From: an uncultured Treponema sp.
GTDB taxonomy: Bacteria > Spirochaetota > Spirochaetia > Treponematales > Treponemataceae
Assembly (NCBI GenBank): GCA_947167345.1
Contig: CAMVHR010000005.1
Coordinates: 1-64,000, forward strand
Direction of reading: 5' to 3'
DNA length: 64,000 nucleotides
Positions 6,685-62,796 of the stretch are shown here, piece by piece. The notes beneath the pieces were generated by a model, which saw only the letters and a list, made by a program, of their open reading frames with translations, did no database searches and was not told the origin of the DNA. Position 1 is the first letter of the stretch, and each line of letters opens with the position of its first letter. Position numbers and translations under genes: made by a program.

Positions 6685-7604
6685 TTTAATTTTTGAGGAA
6701 GACCACATATAATTCTTGTAACATCAGCCATACTAGCTATCTTCTGCAAGTAAAGTCCACAAGTCTCCCTCCACTTGCGTTCAAAGGCATCTATAGGAAC
6801 AATGCCACAAAAAATGTCATCAGAAACAATTACCGTGCCAGATGAAAAGTCGCAACAAGGCTCCATACCGTTTTTAAGGCAGAACCAGACATAGTTTTCT
6901 ATATGCACAATGCACTTCTTTGAAAAATCAGGCAGGCAGTCTTTAGAACAAATGGAAATATCAGTTTCCGTAAGGCTGTAATGCATTTTTGCATACGAAA
7001 GCTTTCCTTGATGAGTACCACCTATTATTAAAGACAGTTTTTTACTAGCATTACCGTCAATCATATCTAAACTTCCCTTATGAACGACAGGAATGCCCGC
7101 CGTCATTTCAATAACCGTATCGCAAACCTGTGCAAGAGTTCTTTCACAAAAAGCCAGGTCTTTTCTGTATGCCTCCGTAACATCATCATACAAAAAAGAA
7201 TCGCAAAAAATGCCGTCACTCACAAAAACAGCATTAGAAACACCTCTGGCAAAATCATAAAGATTTGAAGAAACTTTCTGAGCAGAAAGACAATCATATT
7301 TACCCCCTGCAAACATTTCATTTGCAAGAAGAGCAGTCAGGCTGTCTATAAGAAAACAGCTGTCAGAACCAGTTTCGCTTACATTTTTAATGACAGTATG
7401 AATATCTTTAGGACATTCCAATGTCGTAAAATTAAGGTTCTTTCTGTCTTCAAGATGCCTTTTTATGCGAAGACGGTCTTCGTCATCATAAGGAATCATT
7501 GTGGCAACATAAAATCTTTTTCCCTCTGCAGAAAGAGAACAACACAATTTTTGAGCAAGACCACTCTTGCCGTTTTTAGCTCCACCGGTAACAAGAACTT
7601 TCAT
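6681..7604 (-). CDS. cobU: CobU with a second CobU-like domain (adenosylcobinamide kinase/GMP transferase)
   Basis: Residues 1 to about 178 are canonical CobU: P-loop VTGGAKNGKSGLA (7-14), ATMIPYDDEDRLRIKRHLEDR with the guanylylated His (about 50), FLIDSLTALLANEM, and a CDTVIEMTAGIPVVHKG C-terminus. It phosphorylates adenosylcobinamide and transfers GMP from GTP. Residues about 190-307 form a second, shorter CobU-like unit: LSLIIGGTHQGKLSYAK (P-loop-like at 195-201), VIVSDDIFCGIVPIDAFERKWRE and ADVTRIICGLPQKLK. This second unit lacks the RxxxHxxxR segment, so it probably cannot carry out guanylylation; it resembles short stand-alone CobU-like proteins of clostridia. Total 307 residues against about 180 usual. 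Start and stop overlap neighbours as ATGA. Confidence 0.9.
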   Translation of the reverse strand: MKVLVTGGAKNGKSGLAQKLCCSLSAEGKRFYVATMIPYDDEDRLRIKRHLEDRKNLNFTTLECPKDIHTVIKNVSETGSDSCFLIDSLTALLANEMFAGGKYDCLSAQKVSSNLYDFARGVSNAVFVSDGIFCDSFLYDDVTEAYRKDLAFCERTLAQVCDTVIEMTAGIPVVHKGSLDMIDGNASKKLSLIIGGTHQGKLSYAKMHYSLTETDISICSKDCLPDFSKKCIVHIENYVWFCLKNGMEPCCDFSSGTVIVSDDIFCGIVPIDAFERKWRETCGLYLQKIASMADVTRIICGLPQKLK

Positions 7605-8686
7605 TTATGTCTTATTTCTTCCAGATAGCTGTCGTCTATCAAGGCCTGCTCAAACGTAGCCATGGAATTCATAATTGTGCAGGCAGACTCTACAACCTTA
7701 AAAGCCAGTGGACAACCACTTCCCTCTCCCAGACGCATTTTCAGATTCAAGAAAGGTGTAATGTTCAGCTCCCTTGCAGCAACATTGTAGCCGACTTCTT
7801 CTGACATGTGTGATGCAATAAAAAATTTTACACTTCTGTCACACATTCGGTAAGCACAGAGGGCGGCAACTATGGAAATATAACCGTCAATAACTACCGG
7901 AATTCTGTTTTGAGCGGCACCAAGAAAAACACCACACATAGCGGCAATATCAAGACCACCAACCTTATGCAAGACATCAAGAACATCGTTACTGTCTGGT
8001 TTATTTACAACAAGTGAAGTCTCTATGACTTTTATCTTTTTAAAAAAAGCTTCATCAGTAATGCCGCCACCCCTTCCAGTTATCTTTTCAGGAGCAAATC
8101 CTGTCAGGGCAGAAAGCACTGCGGTAGAAGTGGTAGTGTTTCCAATTCCCATCTCCCCCACACCAATTATTGAAATGCCGTCTTTTTTAGCAAGTTTTGC
8201 AAGCTCTATGCCATCGGCAACAGCCTCTTCTGCATTCTGCAGGCTCATTGCAGGTTCCCGGGCAATATTACCGGTACCAGACCTTATTTTTTTATTTAAA
8301 ATGGCTGGGCAGTCATATTCAGTCTCAATGCCAACATCAACAACCTGAACCTGACAGCCAAAATACCTGGCCAGACACGACATGCCTGTAAGTCCTTTTG
8401 TCATGTTTACAGCCTGACTTGCAGTAACAGACTTTGGAGCAGAAGACACTCCTTCAGATACAACACCGTTATCCGCACACAAAACGATTATGCGGCTTGA
8501 ATCAATTTTATTTTTCACACAGCCTGTCATTCCTGCCAGCTGTACACCTATATCAAGCAATACACCGAGACTTCCAGGCGGCATGGCAAGTGTTGATTGA
8601 TATTCTCTTGCTTTCTGCATGGTAGAATAATCCAAGTCTGAAATGGAATTAATACAGTTGTCTATTATTTTCTTACTGTCTGTCAT
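7601..8686 (-). CDS. cobT: nicotinate-nucleotide:dimethylbenzimidazole phosphoribosyltransferase CobT
   Basis: A 361-residue CobT, which makes alpha-ribazole phosphate from nicotinate mononucleotide and the lower-ligand base. Visible family motifs: LAMPPGSLG, VLCADNGVVSEGVSS, IIGVGEMGIGNTTTSTAVLSAL (phosphate-binding), GRGGGITDEAF, ASHMSEEVGYN, and LRLGEGSG-type LKMRLGEGSGCPLA near the C-terminus, containing the catalytic Glu. Length matches the family. It is preceded by a possible 38-residue ORF and followed by cobU with an ATGA overlap. The sequence does not say whether dimethylbenzimidazole or another base is used; no bluB or bza genes are seen in the window. Confidence 0.95.
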   Translation of the reverse strand: MTDSKKIIDNCINSISDLDYSTMQKAREYQSTLAMPPGSLGVLLDIGVQLAGMTGCVKNKIDSSRIIVLCADNGVVSEGVSSAPKSVTASQAVNMTKGLTGMSCLARYFGCQVQVVDVGIETEYDCPAILNKKIRSGTGNIAREPAMSLQNAEEAVADGIELAKLAKKDGISIIGVGEMGIGNTTTSTAVLSALTGFAPEKITGRGGGITDEAFFKKIKVIETSLVVNKPDSNDVLDVLHKVGGLDIAAMCGVFLGAAQNRIPVVIDGYISIVAALCAYRMCDRSVKFFIASHMSEEVGYNVAARELNITPFLNLKMRLGEGSGCPLAFKVVESACTIMNSMATFEQALIDDSYLEEIRHK

Positions 8687-8702
8687 TTTACTTTTCGTAA
8701 GC

Positions 8703-8819
8703 TCAGTTTATGCAGAAACTTCCTATTTCTTTCACAGAACCATCGCCTGCAATTCTGTGAACAACTCCATAAGGAATGTCATTATGAATCAGTTCTTCCG
8801 TTGATTGCCGTATAATCAT
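8703..8819 (-). CDS. possible 38-residue small protein between cbiA/cobD and cobT
   Basis: Between the CbiA-CobD stop (8842) and the cobT start (8686) there is an in-strand ATG ORF of 38 codons, with 22 nt before it and 16 nt after it. Elsewhere in this transcription unit genes abut or overlap, so a 155-nt hole would be exceptional. The peptide has a protein-like composition (MIIRQSTEEL at the start, then DIPYGVVHRIAGDGSV and GSFCIN). There is no good Shine-Dalgarno, and I recognise no family. It could equally be the remnant of a longer gene or untranslated spacer. Confidence 0.4.
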   Translation of the reverse strand: MIIRQSTEELIHNDIPYGVVHRIAGDGSVKEIGSFCIN

Positions 8820-56627: not shown

Positions 56628-56984
56628 TCAAGCAGATTCTTTTAGGGAAAGTATTTTTCTTATGCACGCAACAAGTTCGGAAACATTGTCAAGATAATCT
56701 CCAAAATTCAGCTTGTAATATATACATGTTCCAACTTTATGCGGCTTAATAATTCCACAATCCTTCAAAACCTTAAGATGATGTGATATTGCCGGACGTG
56801 ACAGCTTGGACATTGCACTCAAACTATTTACATTTATACCGTTTTCATCATCAGTTTCCGCAGTCCCTATATCCAAAATCAATTTCTGACGAACCTCGTC
56901 TCCCAACGCAATAAACAGAGGAGCACATGAGTTAAACAGAGTTGACGCATGTTCGATTTCTAATTTATCTATTCTATTTGCCAT
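56628..56984 (-). CDS. ArsR-family transcriptional repressor
   Basis: A 118-residue winged-helix protein of the ArsR type: FIALGDEVRQKLILDI, LSAMSKLSRPAISHHLKVLK (recognition helix) and DCGIIKPHKVGTCIYYKLNF (wing). The metal-binding ELCVCDL motif of ArsR/SmtB is absent; Cys residues occur only at NSCAPL, KDCGI, TCIYY and ACIRK, so it may sense something other than metal. The start at 56984 is set by AGGGGAAA upstream. It is divergent from the RND pump gene, and palindromes (GTTTAA-N4-TTRAAC) occur in both promoter regions, so it is the likely regulator of that operon and of itself. Confidence 0.88.
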   Translation of the reverse strand: MANRIDKLEIEHASTLFNSCAPLFIALGDEVRQKLILDIGTAETDDENGINVNSLSAMSKLSRPAISHHLKVLKDCGIIKPHKVGTCIYYKLNFGDYLDNVSELVACIRKILSLKESA

Positions 56985-57009
56985 AAAATTTCCCCTACAC
57001 TCCTTTAAG

Positions 57010-57039
57010 ATTTTAATTCCCATAGGACCACCTTGTCAA
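57010..57039 (-). promoter_or_regulatory. arsR promoter
   Basis: TTGACA (57039-57034) and TAAAAT (57015-57010), spacer 18 nt, 25 nt before the start codon. A palindromic operator lies 3 nt upstream of the -35 box. Confidence 0.6.
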
Positions 57040-57124: not shown

Positions 57125-57140
57125 GTTTAATTATTTGAAC
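57125..57140. promoter_or_regulatory. operator site 2
   Basis: GTTTAATTATTTGAAC, 6-4-6 palindrome with one mismatch, located from about +4 to +20 of the pump promoter. Shares GTTTAA-N4-TTGAAC with site 3. Confidence 0.7.
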
Positions 57141-57167
57141 AGATTAATTATAGAGAGGTTTTTCAAA

Positions 57168-60101
57168 ATGAAGTTTTTAAAAGCTTTTTTCAGGCATCCG
57201 ACAATAATAATTGTCATTTGTCTTGTAGCAACAGGATTCTTCGGTTTTTTTCTGAAGGATCTTTCATTAAGCAATTCAACACGAATGTTCTTTCCTCAGA
57301 AAGACGAATCCTACACAAGGCTCACTGATACAGAAGCCACATTTGGAAGCATGCTTTCTATAGGTATAAGTCTAGAAGCAAAGGAAGGAACTATCCTTAC
57401 CCCAGAATACATAGATGTTGTAAGAAATATTACCGAACGTGTTTTTGCGCTAAAAGATGTGGAAGACATAGATTCACTCACGGATATTGACTATGTATGC
57501 GATCAGGATGGTTCTATTTCTGCAACACAACTTATTCCTGACACATATACAGGTTCTCCAGAAGACATTGCCCAACTCGCTTCACGGCTTGCAGAATGGG
57601 ACAGCATGTATAATCGTGTAATAATGAATGATACATTCACTGGAACGCAAATTGCAGTTTCCATTGTTCCTAAAGGAGACGAACAGATAGCCTTTGACAA
57701 GGCAAAAGAAAATCTGGAGGCTTCTCAGGCAGCTTTTGATGCAGAAAACAATGACGACACACAGAAAGCACTTGCAGATGCAAAGGCGGAATTCAAAGCA
57801 GCAAAAAAAGCTCTCAGACTTGCACCACCAGATTCAGAGCGTCAGCAGAAAGTCCTTGAGCAGGTAAAAGATATCACTATAGAAGAATGTCAGGGACATG
57901 ACCTTCTGTACAAGTTTTATGGAGATCCTGTAATTTCCGTAACTTCCAAAGAATTCATGGTTTCAGACCTTGTTGGTCTCATTCCCCTTGTAATAGTAAT
58001 AGTAATTCTTACGCTTTATTTCAGTTTCCATACATTTACAGGAACTTTCCTTCCGCTCCTTACAGTCCTTATGTCAACTGCAATTTCCTGTGGCATGATG
58101 GGAATGCTACACATTACATTTTCTCTTGTTTCAAGTGTCATCCCTGTAGCTCTCATTGCCGTAGGTTCTGCTTATGGAATTCATGTTCTTACTCACTATT
58201 ATGTAGAATTGAGTTTTATACAAGGTGATGTTTCAAGGGATCAGCAGTTAGAAGCCATTCTCAAGGGACTTAAGGAAGTATGGAAAGCCGTTCTTCTTGC
58301 AGGACTCACAACAATAGTAGGTTTCGTATCTCTTGTTACAAGCCCTATTGAACCTTTGCACAGTTTTGCAATCTTTACGGCAATAGGAGTAGCTCTCGCT
58401 CTCTTCTTCTCAGTAACATTTATTCCTGCCCTTCTGCTTGTATTGCCATGTAAGGAAGCAAATAAAAAAAGACGCATGTTTGGATTTACAGACATGGTAA
58501 AAAGGCAGGTTGCACGGGCACAAATGATGCGTGGAGGACGATCTGCAAAAGAAGCAAGCGGTGACACACTGTATATTATCTATCGCTTTTTCTGCGGATC
58601 ATGGGTACGTCTCATAATTACGTCCATTGCAATAGTAATTCTTTCCTTTACAGGATTAAGCAAGCTTAAGATTGATACGTCACTTATCGGTTACTTCCCT
58701 AAAAGTTCCCAGATGAGGAAAGACATTGATTATGTAAATGAACAGTTTGCAGGCACAAACAGTGTATATTTTAACATTTCAGGACAGGAAAAAGGCGACA
58801 TTACAAATCCAGAGCTTCTTGTAGCCACAGACAACATGCAGAAATTCCTCATGGAAAAGTATGACATCATAGGAAAGATGGTTAGTCTGGATGATTTTAT
58901 AAAGCGCATAAATCAGGTATGGCACGCACCTACAGAAGAAACAGCGGCATATATCCCTGATGCACCAACAGAAGATTCTTCGGAAAGTTTTGACAGCTGG
59001 GAAAGTTTTGGTGACGAAGAATCATTTGACAGCTGGGGAGACGACTCTTCTTCAGATGACGGCATTGAATTCACCAGCTGGGGAGAGGAAGATACCTCTC
59101 AGACAGAAGAACCGGCTTCTGATTTCGAAGATCCTAACATCATTTATACAGCTCGACTTTCAGAAACTCTTACTGCAAAACAGATGCTTGACCTTATGAA
59201 TCAGGCATACATTGCTGCTGGTGGAAAGTATGCTACACTAGACAAGATGATTGATTTTCTCATGAAGGAAATCAACTACAACGGAATGGCTTACTACGAA
59301 ATTCCATATAATCCTGCAAAGTATCCTGTAGCTACACGAGAACAGCTTGCAGATGTTGTAAGCAACTATCTTACACTCCTGAGCGGTTCTCTGGAACGCT
59401 TTATTGATGATGACATGAGTCCTAAGACAATGCGCATTACATGCCAGCTGCGTACTCACTCTACAGAACTTGCAAGCCACATCATAAATGATGCAAAGCG
59501 ATATGCAGCAGAGCACTTCCCTGCTGGTTACACACTCGAAGCAACTGGTACTGGAGAAATGGAATATACAATGACAAGCCTTGTTGTAAAAAGCCAGTTT
59601 TCAAGCCTTGTTGTATCACTTTTATCAGTATTCATAATTATTGCAATATCTTTCAAGTCTGCATGGGCTGGAATTCTTGGTGCAATACCTCTTGCATTTG
59701 CAATTCTGCTTAACTACATGACAATGGGTTTTGCAAAGATTAATTTGGACTTGATAACAAGCATCATTGCATCTGTTACAGTCGGTGTTGGAATTGACTA
59801 TACAATTCACTTCCTCACAACATATCGGGAAGAACGGTCTAAAACAGACAATCTTGAAGAAGTGACAAAACAGACTTTCAAAAAGAGCGGCCACGGCATA
59901 CTGACAAATGCACTTGCAGTAGGACTTGGATTCCTTGTACTTTGCCTTTCAAAGTTCGTTGTACTCAAGTACATAGGAATTCTTGTAGCAATAGTAATGT
60001 TTACATCTGCATTCCTTGCAATGACAGTAATTCCTGGGGTACTGAACCTTACAGATCCTAAGTTCATGCGTCCAAAGGAAGAAAAAAGTAAAAAGGATTG
60101 A
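57168..60101 (+). CDS. RND/MMPL-family transporter
   Basis: A 977-residue membrane transporter with two similar halves, each one transmembrane helix, a large periplasmic loop and five helices (IIIVICLVATGFFGFFL; LIPLVIVIVILTLYF; SLVVSLLSVFIIIAISFKSA; SVTVGVGIDYTIHFL). Motif-like GSAYGIHVLTHYYVEL and GVGIDYTIHFLTTYREE match the helix-4 Gly/Asp signature of MMPL/RND proteins. The second periplasmic loop contains an unusual acidic Ser/Phe/Trp tract (about residues 600-650, SFDSWESFGDEESFDSWGDD) like that of the barrel protein three genes on. Start ATG 57168 has GAGAGG upstream; a TTG-initiated extension lies in the operator. With the LolA-like and barrel genes it probably forms an envelope transport system, substrate unknown. 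Confidence 0.88.
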   Translation: MKFLKAFFRHPTIIIVICLVATGFFGFFLKDLSLSNSTRMFFPQKDESYTRLTDTEATFGSMLSIGISLEAKEGTILTPEYIDVVRNITERVFALKDVEDIDSLTDIDYVCDQDGSISATQLIPDTYTGSPEDIAQLASRLAEWDSMYNRVIMNDTFTGTQIAVSIVPKGDEQIAFDKAKENLEASQAAFDAENNDDTQKALADAKAEFKAAKKALRLAPPDSERQQKVLEQVKDITIEECQGHDLLYKFYGDPVISVTSKEFMVSDLVGLIPLVIVIVILTLYFSFHTFTGTFLPLLTVLMSTAISCGMMGMLHITFSLVSSVIPVALIAVGSAYGIHVLTHYYVELSFIQGDVSRDQQLEAILKGLKEVWKAVLLAGLTTIVGFVSLVTSPIEPLHSFAIFTAIGVALALFFSVTFIPALLLVLPCKEANKKRRMFGFTDMVKRQVARAQMMRGGRSAKEASGDTLYIIYRFFCGSWVRLIITSIAIVILSFTGLSKLKIDTSLIGYFPKSSQMRKDIDYVNEQFAGTNSVYFNISGQEKGDITNPELLVATDNMQKFLMEKYDIIGKMVSLDDFIKRINQVWHAPTEETAAYIPDAPTEDSSESFDSWESFGDEESFDSWGDDSSSDDGIEFTSWGEEDTSQTEEPASDFEDPNIIYTARLSETLTAKQMLDLMNQAYIAAGGKYATLDKMIDFLMKEINYNGMAYYEIPYNPAKYPVATREQLADVVSNYLTLLSGSLERFIDDDMSPKTMRITCQLRTHSTELASHIINDAKRYAAEHFPAGYTLEATGTGEMEYTMTSLVVKSQFSSLVVSLLSVFIIIAISFKSAWAGILGAIPLAFAILLNYMTMGFAKINLDLITSIIASVTVGVGIDYTIHFLTTYREERSKTDNLEEVTKQTFKKSGHGILTNALAVGLGFLVLCLSKFVVLKYIGILVAIVMFTSAFLAMTVIPGVLNLTDPKFMRPKEEKSKKD

Positions 60102-60130
60102 AATGGATGTAACTTTCAATCAGTTAATCT

Positions 60131-60146
60131 GTTTAATCTTTTGAAC
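60131..60146. promoter_or_regulatory. operator site 3
   Basis: GTTTAATCTTTTGAAC, same 6-4-6 palindrome as site 2, overlapping the -35 box (TTGAAC) of the promoter before the LolA-like gene. It implies co-regulation with the pump. Confidence 0.7.
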
Positions 60147-60170
60147 ATTAAATAGAACAGGTCATATATA
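60141..60170 (+). promoter_or_regulatory. promoter for LolA-like gene
   Basis: TTGAAC (60141-60146) and TATATA (60165-60170), spacer 18 nt; leader about 22 nt with AAAGGAGA ribosome binding site. The -35 hexamer is part of operator site 3. Confidence 0.55.
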
Positions 60171-60198
60171 GACTTGAAAAATAAAGGAGATAGAACTT

Positions 60199-61002
60199 AT
60201 GAAAATGACAGTAAAGCTTTTGACACTTACAGCAATTGCACTTATCGGAACAACACTTGCTTTCGCAGACGAGAAGGGAACTGACATCATGCAGAAAGCA
60301 AAGGATTTGGAAAAACCGAAATTTTCACATTCCATAGTGGAAATGGTTCTGACAGAAAAGAACGGAACAAAAGAAATCCGCAAGGTAGAAGAATTAGGTC
60401 GCAACCGTGATGACGGCAATGGAAACAAGGTAAATGACGTTACAATGCTCTTCCACTCTCCTGCAAATATCAAGGACACACGATTCCTTCAGAAGGAAAA
60501 TCATGCAAAGGATGATGACAAGTGGATTTACCTTCCTGCCCTCAGAAATACGCGACGCGTAAATTCCAGCGAAGGAAGCAAGTCTTTTATGGGTACAGAC
60601 GCAACTTACGACGACCTTTCTACAAGAGAAATAGAGGAAGATGATCATCAGTATCAGGGAGAGGAAACAAAGAAAGTCGGCTCAAATACATTCGAGTGCT
60701 ACAAAATCAAGGAAGTCCCTTATGACAAAAAGAGCAGCCAGTACAGCTACCGTATTACATGGGTAGACAAGGCAACTTACGTTCCTGTATATACAGAGAT
60801 GTACGACAAGAACGAAAAGCTCATTAAGACACTTGAAGTTCCTGTAATCAAGAACATCAACGGGTACACAATCACAATGGCTACCAGAATGACAAATGTT
60901 CAGACTGGTCACTCTACAACAATCACAATCAAGCAGTTGGAGTTGGACAAGCCTCTTCCAGAGCGCGTATTCACAGACAAGTTCCTGAGTACAGGTAAAT
61001 AA
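60199..61002 (+). CDS. periplasmic LolA-like protein (outer-membrane lipoprotein-sorting protein family)
   Basis: A 267-residue exported protein (signal peptide VKLLTLTAIALIGTTLAFA). The mature part has KAKDLEKPKFSHSIVEMVLT, RDDGNGNKVNDVTMLFHSP, DKWIYLPALRNTRRVNSSEG, SFMGTDATYDDLSTR and YKIKEVPYD, matching the LolA-like PF17131 group often encoded beside MMPL/RND transporters. Such proteins are expected to hold lipids or lipoproteins in a half-open beta-barrel; the present ligand is unknown. It lies between pump and barrel genes under its own promoter and operator. Confidence 0.85.
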   Translation: MKMTVKLLTLTAIALIGTTLAFADEKGTDIMQKAKDLEKPKFSHSIVEMVLTEKNGTKEIRKVEELGRNRDDGNGNKVNDVTMLFHSPANIKDTRFLQKENHAKDDDKWIYLPALRNTRRVNSSEGSKSFMGTDATYDDLSTREIEEDDHQYQGEETKKVGSNTFECYKIKEVPYDKKSSQYSYRITWVDKATYVPVYTEMYDKNEKLIKTLEVPVIKNINGYTITMATRMTNVQTGHSTTITIKQLELDKPLPERVFTDKFLSTGK

Positions 61003-61031
61003 GCTTATCTAAAAACAAAACAACCATATAT

Positions 61032-61068
61032 GGCTGTCTAAACAAAAGATTTAGGCAGCCTTTATTTT
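61032..61068 (+). terminator. hairpin with T-rich tail between LolA-like and barrel genes
   Basis: GGCTGTCTAAA (61032-61042) pairs with TTTAGGCAGCC (61050-61060) with one G-T pair, followed by TTTATTTT. It should reduce, but may not abolish, transcription into the barrel gene, whose ribosome binding site begins right after. Confidence 0.7.
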
Positions 61069-61083
61069 GCAGGAGGACTTTTA

Positions 61084-62796
61084 ATGAAAATCATAAAGCT
61101 TGCAGCATTGGCAGCAGCAGGACTTTTGCTCACAACATCGGTATTTGCACAATTTGAAGATACAGACGACTTCGGTTCCTTTGAAACAGATTCTTTTGAT
61201 GATAATGAAGATCCATTTGGAGATGGAGATTCGTTCGGGAGCGATGATTCTTTTGGGTCTTTTGACGATGATTCTTTTGGGTCTTTTGGCGATGATTCAT
61301 TTGGTTCTTTCGGTGATGACGGATCTTCCTCTTCCGCACTAACTTTCAGCGGAGACCTTTCTCTTGATGCCCGCTATTATTTTTCAAAAGAAGAGTCCAA
61401 ACAATTCTTGTCCGGTTTAAGGGCAACAACTTCCGCACCTATATTTGACAGAGACTCGAAAGGAGAACGAATTCGTTTCTTTGACACAACATTGAAGGCA
61501 ATCCCAAAAGCAAAAATCGGAATAAAATATTCAGGCTCAATGAGCGAAGCCAGCCTGTCCGTAAATCTGACAGAGCAGACATTAAAAGACTATCATGAAG
61601 ACATTATAGATGAACTGATTATAAGAGGATATTTTCTTGACAACGCCTTGACAGTAGAAGGCGGCAAGATGAAAATTGTATGGGGAAAGGGAGACAAACT
61701 CCACGTCCTTGACAACTTTAATGCAGACGATTACACGGACTTTATTGTACCAGATTACATAGACAGAAGAATAAGCACACCCATGTTCAGGGTTGTATAC
61801 AGTCAGGCATCAGCAAGTGCACTGTCACTGGAAGGAGTATTTACTCCGTTCATGCCTAAAGACCGCTTTGCAAAGAAAGACAGCATGTGGATTCCTGCAG
61901 CCTATAAAAAGCTCGCTTCTAGCATAGAAAGCCTTGTTATGGCAAAAGTAGCAGCAGGAAAAATGAGTCTTGCAGATGCCGCAAACTTTGATTCGGATGA
62001 CTTGAGTCCAGACTTATATAACCTTAAATACGCTCAGGCTGGTCTCCGCCTCACAGGAACAGCTTCTTCATTTGACTGGGGCGTAAGCTATTACTACGGA
62101 CACTACAAACAGCCGTCTGCAAATGCAGAAGAAACTGTAACAATGATGAATCTTGCGACTCTGCTCCCTGCAGCAATGGCTGCTGGAAATGCATCAGAAG
62201 TAGCAAGGCTTAGCGAACTCAGGACAAAATATTTAACAAGTGGCATATCACTTCCTAAGCTTGAATATGACCGAAAGCAGACATTCGGAATAGAAGCAGC
62301 TACAGTTCTAGGTCGCTTTAACTTGCGTGCAGAAGCCTGTTATAACCTTACGGATGATTTTTCTGGCACTGATCCTTGGGTTCACAATAATTCAGTTGGC
62401 TGGCTCTTCGGTTTTGACATGGACATTCCTATAAGTAACATAAATATAAACATACAGGAAATAGGAAATTACATTCTAAAAAATGACCAAATGACGAAGG
62501 GACTATTCAAAGAGCTTGATGTTGACTATGATCCAAAAGGTCGCTATACAAACGATAAATTTGTCATAAACATTTCAGACTCATGGATGCATGACAAATT
62601 AAAACCGGAAGTAACAGTAATGTGGGGTATTGAACGGGGAGACATAATCGTACAACCAAAAGTTGCATACAGCCCTACGCCAGAACTCACTCTGTCACTT
62701 AGCGGAATGTATATTTATTGCCGCGATGAATACAGTGAATTCTATGAATGGAAAAATAATGATTTCGTAAACTTCGGCATACGCTATCAATTTTAA
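61084..62796 (+). CDS. outer-membrane beta-barrel-like protein with acidic DSFGS repeats
   Basis: A 570-residue exported protein (signal peptide LAALAAAGLLLTTSVFAQ). Residues about 20-80 are a low-complexity acidic tract built of DDSFGSFDDDSFGSFGDD-type repeats. The remainder looks like a barrel: LTFSGDLSLDARYYFSK, VRLTGTASSFDWGVSYYYGH-like strands, IEAATVLGRFNLRAEACYNL, ending FVNFGIRYQF with C-terminal Phe. The arrangement (RND pump, LolA-like, barrel) recalls DUF1302-type partner proteins in other bacteria, but I cannot confirm homology. GGAGGA ribosome binding site. Probably the outer-membrane end of a transport system. Confidence 0.75.
   Translation: MKIIKLAALAAAGLLLTTSVFAQFEDTDDFGSFETDSFDDNEDPFGDGDSFGSDDSFGSFDDDSFGSFGDDSFGSFGDDGSSSSALTFSGDLSLDARYYFSKEESKQFLSGLRATTSAPIFDRDSKGERIRFFDTTLKAIPKAKIGIKYSGSMSEASLSVNLTEQTLKDYHEDIIDELIIRGYFLDNALTVEGGKMKIVWGKGDKLHVLDNFNADDYTDFIVPDYIDRRISTPMFRVVYSQASASALSLEGVFTPFMPKDRFAKKDSMWIPAAYKKLASSIESLVMAKVAAGKMSLADAANFDSDDLSPDLYNLKYAQAGLRLTGTASSFDWGVSYYYGHYKQPSANAEETVTMMNLATLLPAAMAAGNASEVARLSELRTKYLTSGISLPKLEYDRKQTFGIEAATVLGRFNLRAEACYNLTDDFSGTDPWVHNNSVGWLFGFDMDIPISNININIQEIGNYILKNDQMTKGLFKELDVDYDPKGRYTNDKFVINISDSWMHDKLKPEVTVMWGIERGDIIVQPKVAYSPTPELTLSLSGMYIYCRDEYSEFYEWKNNDFVNFGIRYQF
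61243..61314 (+). repeat. 3 x 24-bp tandem repeat in barrel gene
   Basis: Three in-frame 24-bp units encode DDSFGSFD, DDSFGSFG, DDSFGSFG. The first two differ at one base and the third has several synonymous changes. A part of a longer degenerate acidic tract. Confidence 0.9.

Follow-up and report, generated by a model that had tools for sequence, protein, structure and literature searches.

Why should two otherwise unrelated proteins, a pump of the inner membrane and a barrel of the outer membrane, carry the same kind of peptide? The question is raised by three genes lying on one strand of a 64-kb window (the whole stretch of DNA analysed), in the order RND/MMPL pump, LolA_like carrier and β-barrel. 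The genes and the peptides that concern us here are as follows.

57165-60101, + strand: RND/MMPL pump (HAE3-like), the inner-membrane donor; 978 aa, PF03176 at E 8.7e-43 in two stretches
58956-59126, + strand: acidic Ser/Phe/Trp/Gly tract in the second periplasmic loop of the pump (site A); 57 residues, PDAPTEDSSESFDSWESFGDEESFDSWGDDSSSDDGIEFTSWGEEDTSQTEEPASDF
60199-61002, + strand: LolA_like periplasmic carrier; 267 aa with signal peptide, PF17131 at E 1.9e-59
61084-62796, + strand: predicted outer-membrane β-barrel of porin/MOMP-like fold; 570 aa, AlphaFold2 mean pLDDT 79.8
61150-61335, + strand: disordered acidic Phe/Ser/Gly tract of the barrel; 62 residues, QFEDTDDFGSFETDSFDDNEDPFGDGDSFGSDDSFGSFDDDSFGSFGDDSFGSFGDDG
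61241-61319, + strand: 24-bp tandem repeat array within the barrel tract; 3.3 copies, 89% match, encoding DDSFGSFG units

With 147 bits against PF03176 (MMPL; gathering cut-off 20.5), the pump belongs to the MMPL/RND proteins. It is related to the HAE3 family, of which it is not a member, since its score against TIGR00921 (237 bits, E 3.2e-70) lies under the curated cut-off of 352. It also scores below the equivalog cut-offs of the models for the hopanoid transporter HpnN (102 bits, cut-off 752) and the sterol transporter BstA (32.5 bits, cut-off 1400). The carrier is a member of PF17131, LolA_like (200.8 bits, gathering cut-off 30). Its fold was assessed on the model of a relative from a second transport system of the same genome (System 3, below), which stands in for the window carrier and whose best PDB matches were 3buu, 3bk5 and 4z48, with TM (target) of 0.75-0.81. 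With E values up to 1 allowed, the barrel protein matched no Pfam family, DUF1302 included; a signal peptide at its N-terminus, judged by eye, and a barrel predicted by AlphaFold2 from 36 homologues mark it as a putative outer-membrane β-barrel protein, the fold matches being porins and MOMP at modest TM scores of 0.39/0.52.

The first-pass annotation had claimed that the second periplasmic loop of the pump and the N-terminus of the barrel bear the same type of acidic, aromatic, Ser/Gly tract while the remainder of the two proteins is unrelated, and both parts of this claim are borne out. The pump tract is rich in Asp/Glu, Ser, Gly, Phe and Trp, and its counterpart in the barrel is placed between the signal peptide and the first strand, in a region (residues 12-81) modelled with pLDDT < 50 by AlphaFold2; outside the tracts, an MMPL/RND protein is being compared with a barrel that has no Pfam match. 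Given how RND pumps and outer-membrane proteins are known to be oriented, both tracts should face the periplasm. Repeat expansion accounts for part of the length of the barrel tract but not for its existence, and the 24-bp array suggests a recent length change through repeat slippage.

The pairing of the tracts is real and conserved, and not an accident of one genome. Across 148 relatives, barrel homologues were found in 91 and pump homologues in 85, with both genes in 83 genomes, neither in 55 and a discordant result in ten. Loci were drawn from these relatives and from 80 further named records, almost all of them from Treponema species or MAGs, including T. bryantii, T. parvum, T. socranskii, T. 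berlinense and T. porcinum. Loop 2 contains the tract in 109 of the 111 distinct pumps covering that loop, and the two pumps for which no tract was called (L092, L099) have GFGFGFGD and SFWVEE there, under the acidity threshold. Both proteins carry the tract in 89/92 pump-barrel pairs, and a single locus (L094) is truly one-sided by appearance, with a tract in the pump and not in the barrel. Homologous loci thus show the co-occurrence that the first-pass annotation had proposed to look for, mostly free of one-sided cases. Barrel tracts in these homologues are often ~20-30 residues long.

The position of the tract within the pump is less constant than its presence. Counted after removal of a structural-motif false match, and with L237 taken as site A, the tract lies at site A in 89 pumps and at a site B in 20, where it precedes site A by ~50 residues within the same loop; no pump has it at both sites. 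The pump tree implies roughly three switches between the sites. Pumps with site B include L050, L052, L059, L074, L075, L077, L089 and L131-L138, among others. Because of the 20 pumps with site B, we reject the view that the tract is a structural element with a set place in the pump; a tract that is relocated yet retained argues for a required peptide and not for an element of a fixed fold.

Some loci (L043, L064, L069) have LolA_like-barrel pairs with no adjoining pump, and in these the barrel tract is weak or absent; in some genomes of this kind the pump is located elsewhere. A reduced but complete genome from the same family (G203, 1.1 Mb) yielded neither the barrel nor the System-3 permease, and both motif-bearing systems seem to be missing from it.

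Not only the presence but also the type of the tract is matched between pump and barrel. By eye, tract type shifts together in the two proteins, DDWGDSGDDWGDS being paired with DDWGSD, DFGDFG with DFGDFGGF and FGFG with FGFG, and more distant loci have lineage-specific pairs such as SFFDD/SFFDD and SFFEEEG/SFFEEG. Across 25 lineages at a pump identity of <= 60%, own pairs score higher than mismatched pairs (z 4.7, p 5e-5). About half of this advantage remains when residue order is shuffled, so that part of the own-pair signal is compositional; the RND-type match nevertheless exceeds its order-shuffled controls. Covariation of Trp and Phe looks strong in the raw data (rho 0.47-0.58) and drops to r 0.19 (p about 0.04) in the stricter phylogenetic contrast of Trp/(Trp+Phe), and we give it weak weight only. 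One genome (G166) has two tract-bearing trios (L389/L390), of which, by eye, one pair has SFFDD and the other DFG, whereas alignment scores show no consistent within-trio preference. Taken together, coevolution of the pump and barrel tracts beyond shared ancestry appears real but modest, with a compositional and a motif part.

The same genome contains three LolA_like genes, and the two outside the window (System 1) allow a comparison between systems. System 2 (contig C11, L158:8580-13095) is again an operon of the RND-LolA_like-barrel kind, with a shorter pump, and the tract is absent from both its pump and its barrel. System 3 (contig C2, L150:7265-12904) is an ABC-type operon in which an ATPase and two FtsX-type permeases accompany the LolA_like protein and the barrel. 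In this operon, a motif that differs from the RND type is found in the periplasmic domain of the first permease (DDLDALFADASD) and again in the N-terminus of the non-homologous barrel (FDVDSMFESAED), the form common to both being DxD[SADE][LMI]Fx[DE][AS]xD, or about DxDSLFxDAxD. Both proteins have this motif type in 20 relatives (L352-L371) wherever both genes are covered, one permease being doubtful. A 16-position matrix built from permeases only, leaving out one locus at a time, ranked the barrel above all other non-permease ORFs in 21/21 loci, the median being 20.0 bits for barrels and 3.8 bits for the highest-scoring of the other ORFs; in this set the permease window of L358 is mis-anchored, and L352 and L363 have no permease in the stretch covered. 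In distant loci (L384-L388) the permease and barrel motifs are again alike (EDELFSDD/EDELFGGE, EDELFGSDD/EDELFGGDED, DLDDLFGAGD/DLDDMFSVAD). The exact common substring of System-3 pairs is 3.4 versus 2.8 residues only; since the motif is common family-wide, the substring comparison does not support matching specific to each locus. Two transporter classes with unrelated donors, and each with a barrel of its own, have one type of component in common, the LolA-fold carrier, and within each class donor and acceptor bear the same motif; on the simplest reading, the carrier recognises the motif.

A role of the tracts in docking is a well-supported inference. We propose, at a probability of roughly 0.55, that they are multivalent short linear motifs through which donor and acceptor both dock a shared LolA-like carrier. 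The RND pump would draw a hydrophobic substrate out of the inner membrane, and its flexible loop-2 tract would keep the carrier beside the pump exit. Once loaded, the carrier would depart, be captured by the matching tract at the N-terminus of the barrel, on its periplasmic side, and unload there. If both tracts use the same site on the carrier, docking would be mutually exclusive, with the cargo state setting the affinity of the carrier for the tracts, and the many weak motif copies of a long tract would permit fast capture and release. Because donor and acceptor would share one kind of motif for one carrier site, the motifs of two unrelated proteins would be forced to co-evolve. What the sequences show is the architecture, the conserved presence of the tracts and the match between the motifs; that the LolA-like protein binds the tracts and is handed on is our inference, as is a hydrophobic or lipid cargo, which the families of pump (MMPL/HAE3) and carrier (LolA) suggest.

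The motif type could also serve as a routing label, the ABC (FtsX)-LolA-barrel system having the same arrangement with a different motif. This leads to a broader and more tentative proposal, to which we give somewhat less than even odds: a periplasmic docking code in treponemes and relatives, in which each LolA-type route would have its motif on the donor (RND or ABC) and on the acceptor barrel, read by the cognate carrier, with different routes in one cell using different motifs.

An AlphaFold2 model of a natural in-frame read-through from a System-3 LolA-like protein into the barrel N-terminus (L354, stop read as Gly) has a folded carrier with LolA-superfamily matches and an undocked motif of pLDDT about 40, the included signal peptide being a confounder. 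System-1 LolA-like proteins have a median net charge of 0 (-1 for the window carrier) and no consistent positive charge, which leaves the capture of an acidic tract by a basic carrier through simple electrostatics unsupported.

The first-pass annotation had the two tracts dock pump and barrel across the periplasm. A docking role is probable, and sharing of a carrier site, a logic that applies equally to the ABC-LolA-barrel system, explains the match better than contact between pump and barrel. In such a direct contact the tracts would bind each other through like aromatic stickers (a homotypic contact), their acidic residues perhaps being screened by divalent cations, and so tether the pump to the barrel. 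Matched motifs that change together are also expected of a self-complementary contact, and the strong co-occurrence of the pump and barrel genes would fit it as well; however, both tracts are strongly acidic and should repel each other, a barrel tract of the length often seen in homologues is short for spanning the periplasm, and a tether would not need the LolA-like carrier, which is the fixed third member of every system. We therefore consider direct tethering unlikely.

Less probable again is that the tracts dock some other common periplasmic receptor in place of the LolA-like protein, such as an unlinked chaperone, a peptidoglycan-bound protein or the barrel-assembly machinery. The absence of obvious charge complementarity in the LolA-like proteins would fit such a receptor, but within one genome the motif type tracks the operon, being FG-type with the RND pump, DSLF-type with the ABC transporter and lacking in System 2. 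This points to an operon-encoded receptor, and the LolA-like protein is the only other product common to all systems.

Nor do we favour, at slightly lower odds still, the idea that the tracts are acidic patches binding substrate or cations, or flexible spacers, that resemble each other by composition only. Their sequence is indeed poorly conserved while composition is kept, the own-pair signal is partly compositional, and the barrel tract includes the 24-bp tandem array. Against this, the ABC-type motif is ordered and position-specific in two non-homologous proteins, the RND-type match beats its order-shuffled controls, and the aromatic residues, which a spacer does not need, are retained.

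The tracts are also rare in the genome. A single fixed rule on composition gave only two further matches in the window, of 16-17 residues. The same rule was applied to 1.26 of 3.23 Mb of the genome (39%, about 1,100 non-overlapping ORFs), where the pump and barrel tracts are the longest by far (69 and 57 aa as called), followed by tracts of 36 and 33 aa that are linkers in two Rhs-repeat proteins; all others have 20 aa or less. The Rhs-repeat proteins (L178:4177-6024 and 6821-8713) have a short acidic Trp linker (DDDEWDDWDDWDDDWGDGLGEAGFGFGM), and these linkers are the only other sizeable acidic-aromatic tracts in the scanned part. Whole-genome searches with each tract returned the self-match only, at a power that low-complexity masking may lower, and a DNA pattern for DDSFGSF matched this barrel alone in 3.2 Mb. 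A spread of the tract over unrelated proteins, which the first-pass annotation had named as evidence against its idea, was thus not seen in the scanned 39% or in the whole-genome tract searches. Chance, or a genome-wide habit of acidic low complexity in exported proteins, could appeal to the short Rhs linkers, but with long tracts restricted to these two proteins in the scanned 39%, none in the genome's other RND pumps that resemble this one, and conservation over > 100 loci, it is largely refuted, and we reject it within the scope of that scan and those searches.

Docking of a shared carrier can be set beside several known systems. As in LolCDE-LolA-LolB, an inner-membrane transporter, a LolA-fold shuttle and an outer-membrane acceptor are combined, and System 3 even has FtsX-type permeases; here, however, the acceptor is a barrel and not LolB, and the window pump is of the RND and not the ABC class. 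To our knowledge, LolC and LolB have no linear motif in common.

The gene set itself is of a known kind. According to the available part of its description, AmeABCD of Castellaniella defragrans consists of a HAE3 RND pump, a DUF1329 LolA-superfamily protein, a DUF1302 outer-membrane protein and a COG4447 protein (PMC6394551). As in the window, a HAE3-type pump, a LolA-superfamily periplasmic protein and a barrel are encoded together, and joint action is proposed; unlike here, membrane-fusion-like roles are proposed and matched tracts go unmentioned in that part of the source (PMC6394551). The window has no extra gene between or directly after its three that would correspond to COG4447, and its barrel has no Pfam family where that of AmeABCD is DUF1302. 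We regard the layout as similar and claim no membership.

In Pseudomonas putida, PP_0765, PP_0766, PP_2018 and PP_2019 are a DUF1302 protein, a DUF1329 protein, a periplasmic protein and a transporter, and the DUF1329 LolA-superfamily protein is predicted to form separate complexes with the barrel and with the transporter, a shuttle layout that is a precedent for our model; unlike here, a motif common to donor and acceptor is not reported in the part of the source available (PMC10866462). As a further precedent, the LolA-fold protein MucB binds a periplasmic segment of MucA, with lipid antagonising the binding (PMC7400510). MucB-MucA and RseB-RseA thus resemble our model in joining a LolA-fold protein to a flexible segment of an inner-membrane protein, yet they serve signalling and not transport and have no outer-membrane partner with the same motif. 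A spirochaete export set of the ABC-LolA-outer-membrane kind that resembles System 3 is Borrelia BBJ23-29, with an Omp85-family protein, a MacB-like ABC transporter and the LolA-like BBJ28; its barrel is of the Omp85 type, and no common motif is reported (PMC13078400).

The first-pass annotation knew of no described system with matched tracts, and we likewise found no description of matched donor and acceptor motifs in the literature on LolA with RND/MMPL pumps, on periplasmic short linear motifs and on binding within LolA-LolC-LolB, a search that covered few subscription papers and preprints. The question bears on how a soluble carrier, in the crowded periplasm, locates its proper donor and acceptor, and on how parallel LolA-type routes stay unmixed. 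Spirochaetes that have no obvious LolB, as stated for Borrelia (PMC13078400), make outer-membrane acceptors hard to name; if our reading is true, the matched motif would pick out acceptor barrels by sequence. It would further supply a rule by which each carrier can be assigned to its route, open the hand-off to tests with peptides, and mean that short linear motifs act in the bacterial periplasm in two unrelated transporter classes.

Minor features of the locus are an in-frame TTG at 57135, which would lengthen the pump by 10 aa, and an Ala/Lys/Glu-rich, probably helical insert in the first periplasmic loop of the pump (~57700-57850, AFDKAKENLEASQAAFDAENNDDTQKALADAKAEFKAAKKAL). A small helix-turn-helix-like regulator, ArsR-type by eye, is encoded divergently from the pump operon (56628-57023, - strand) and is a possible local regulator.
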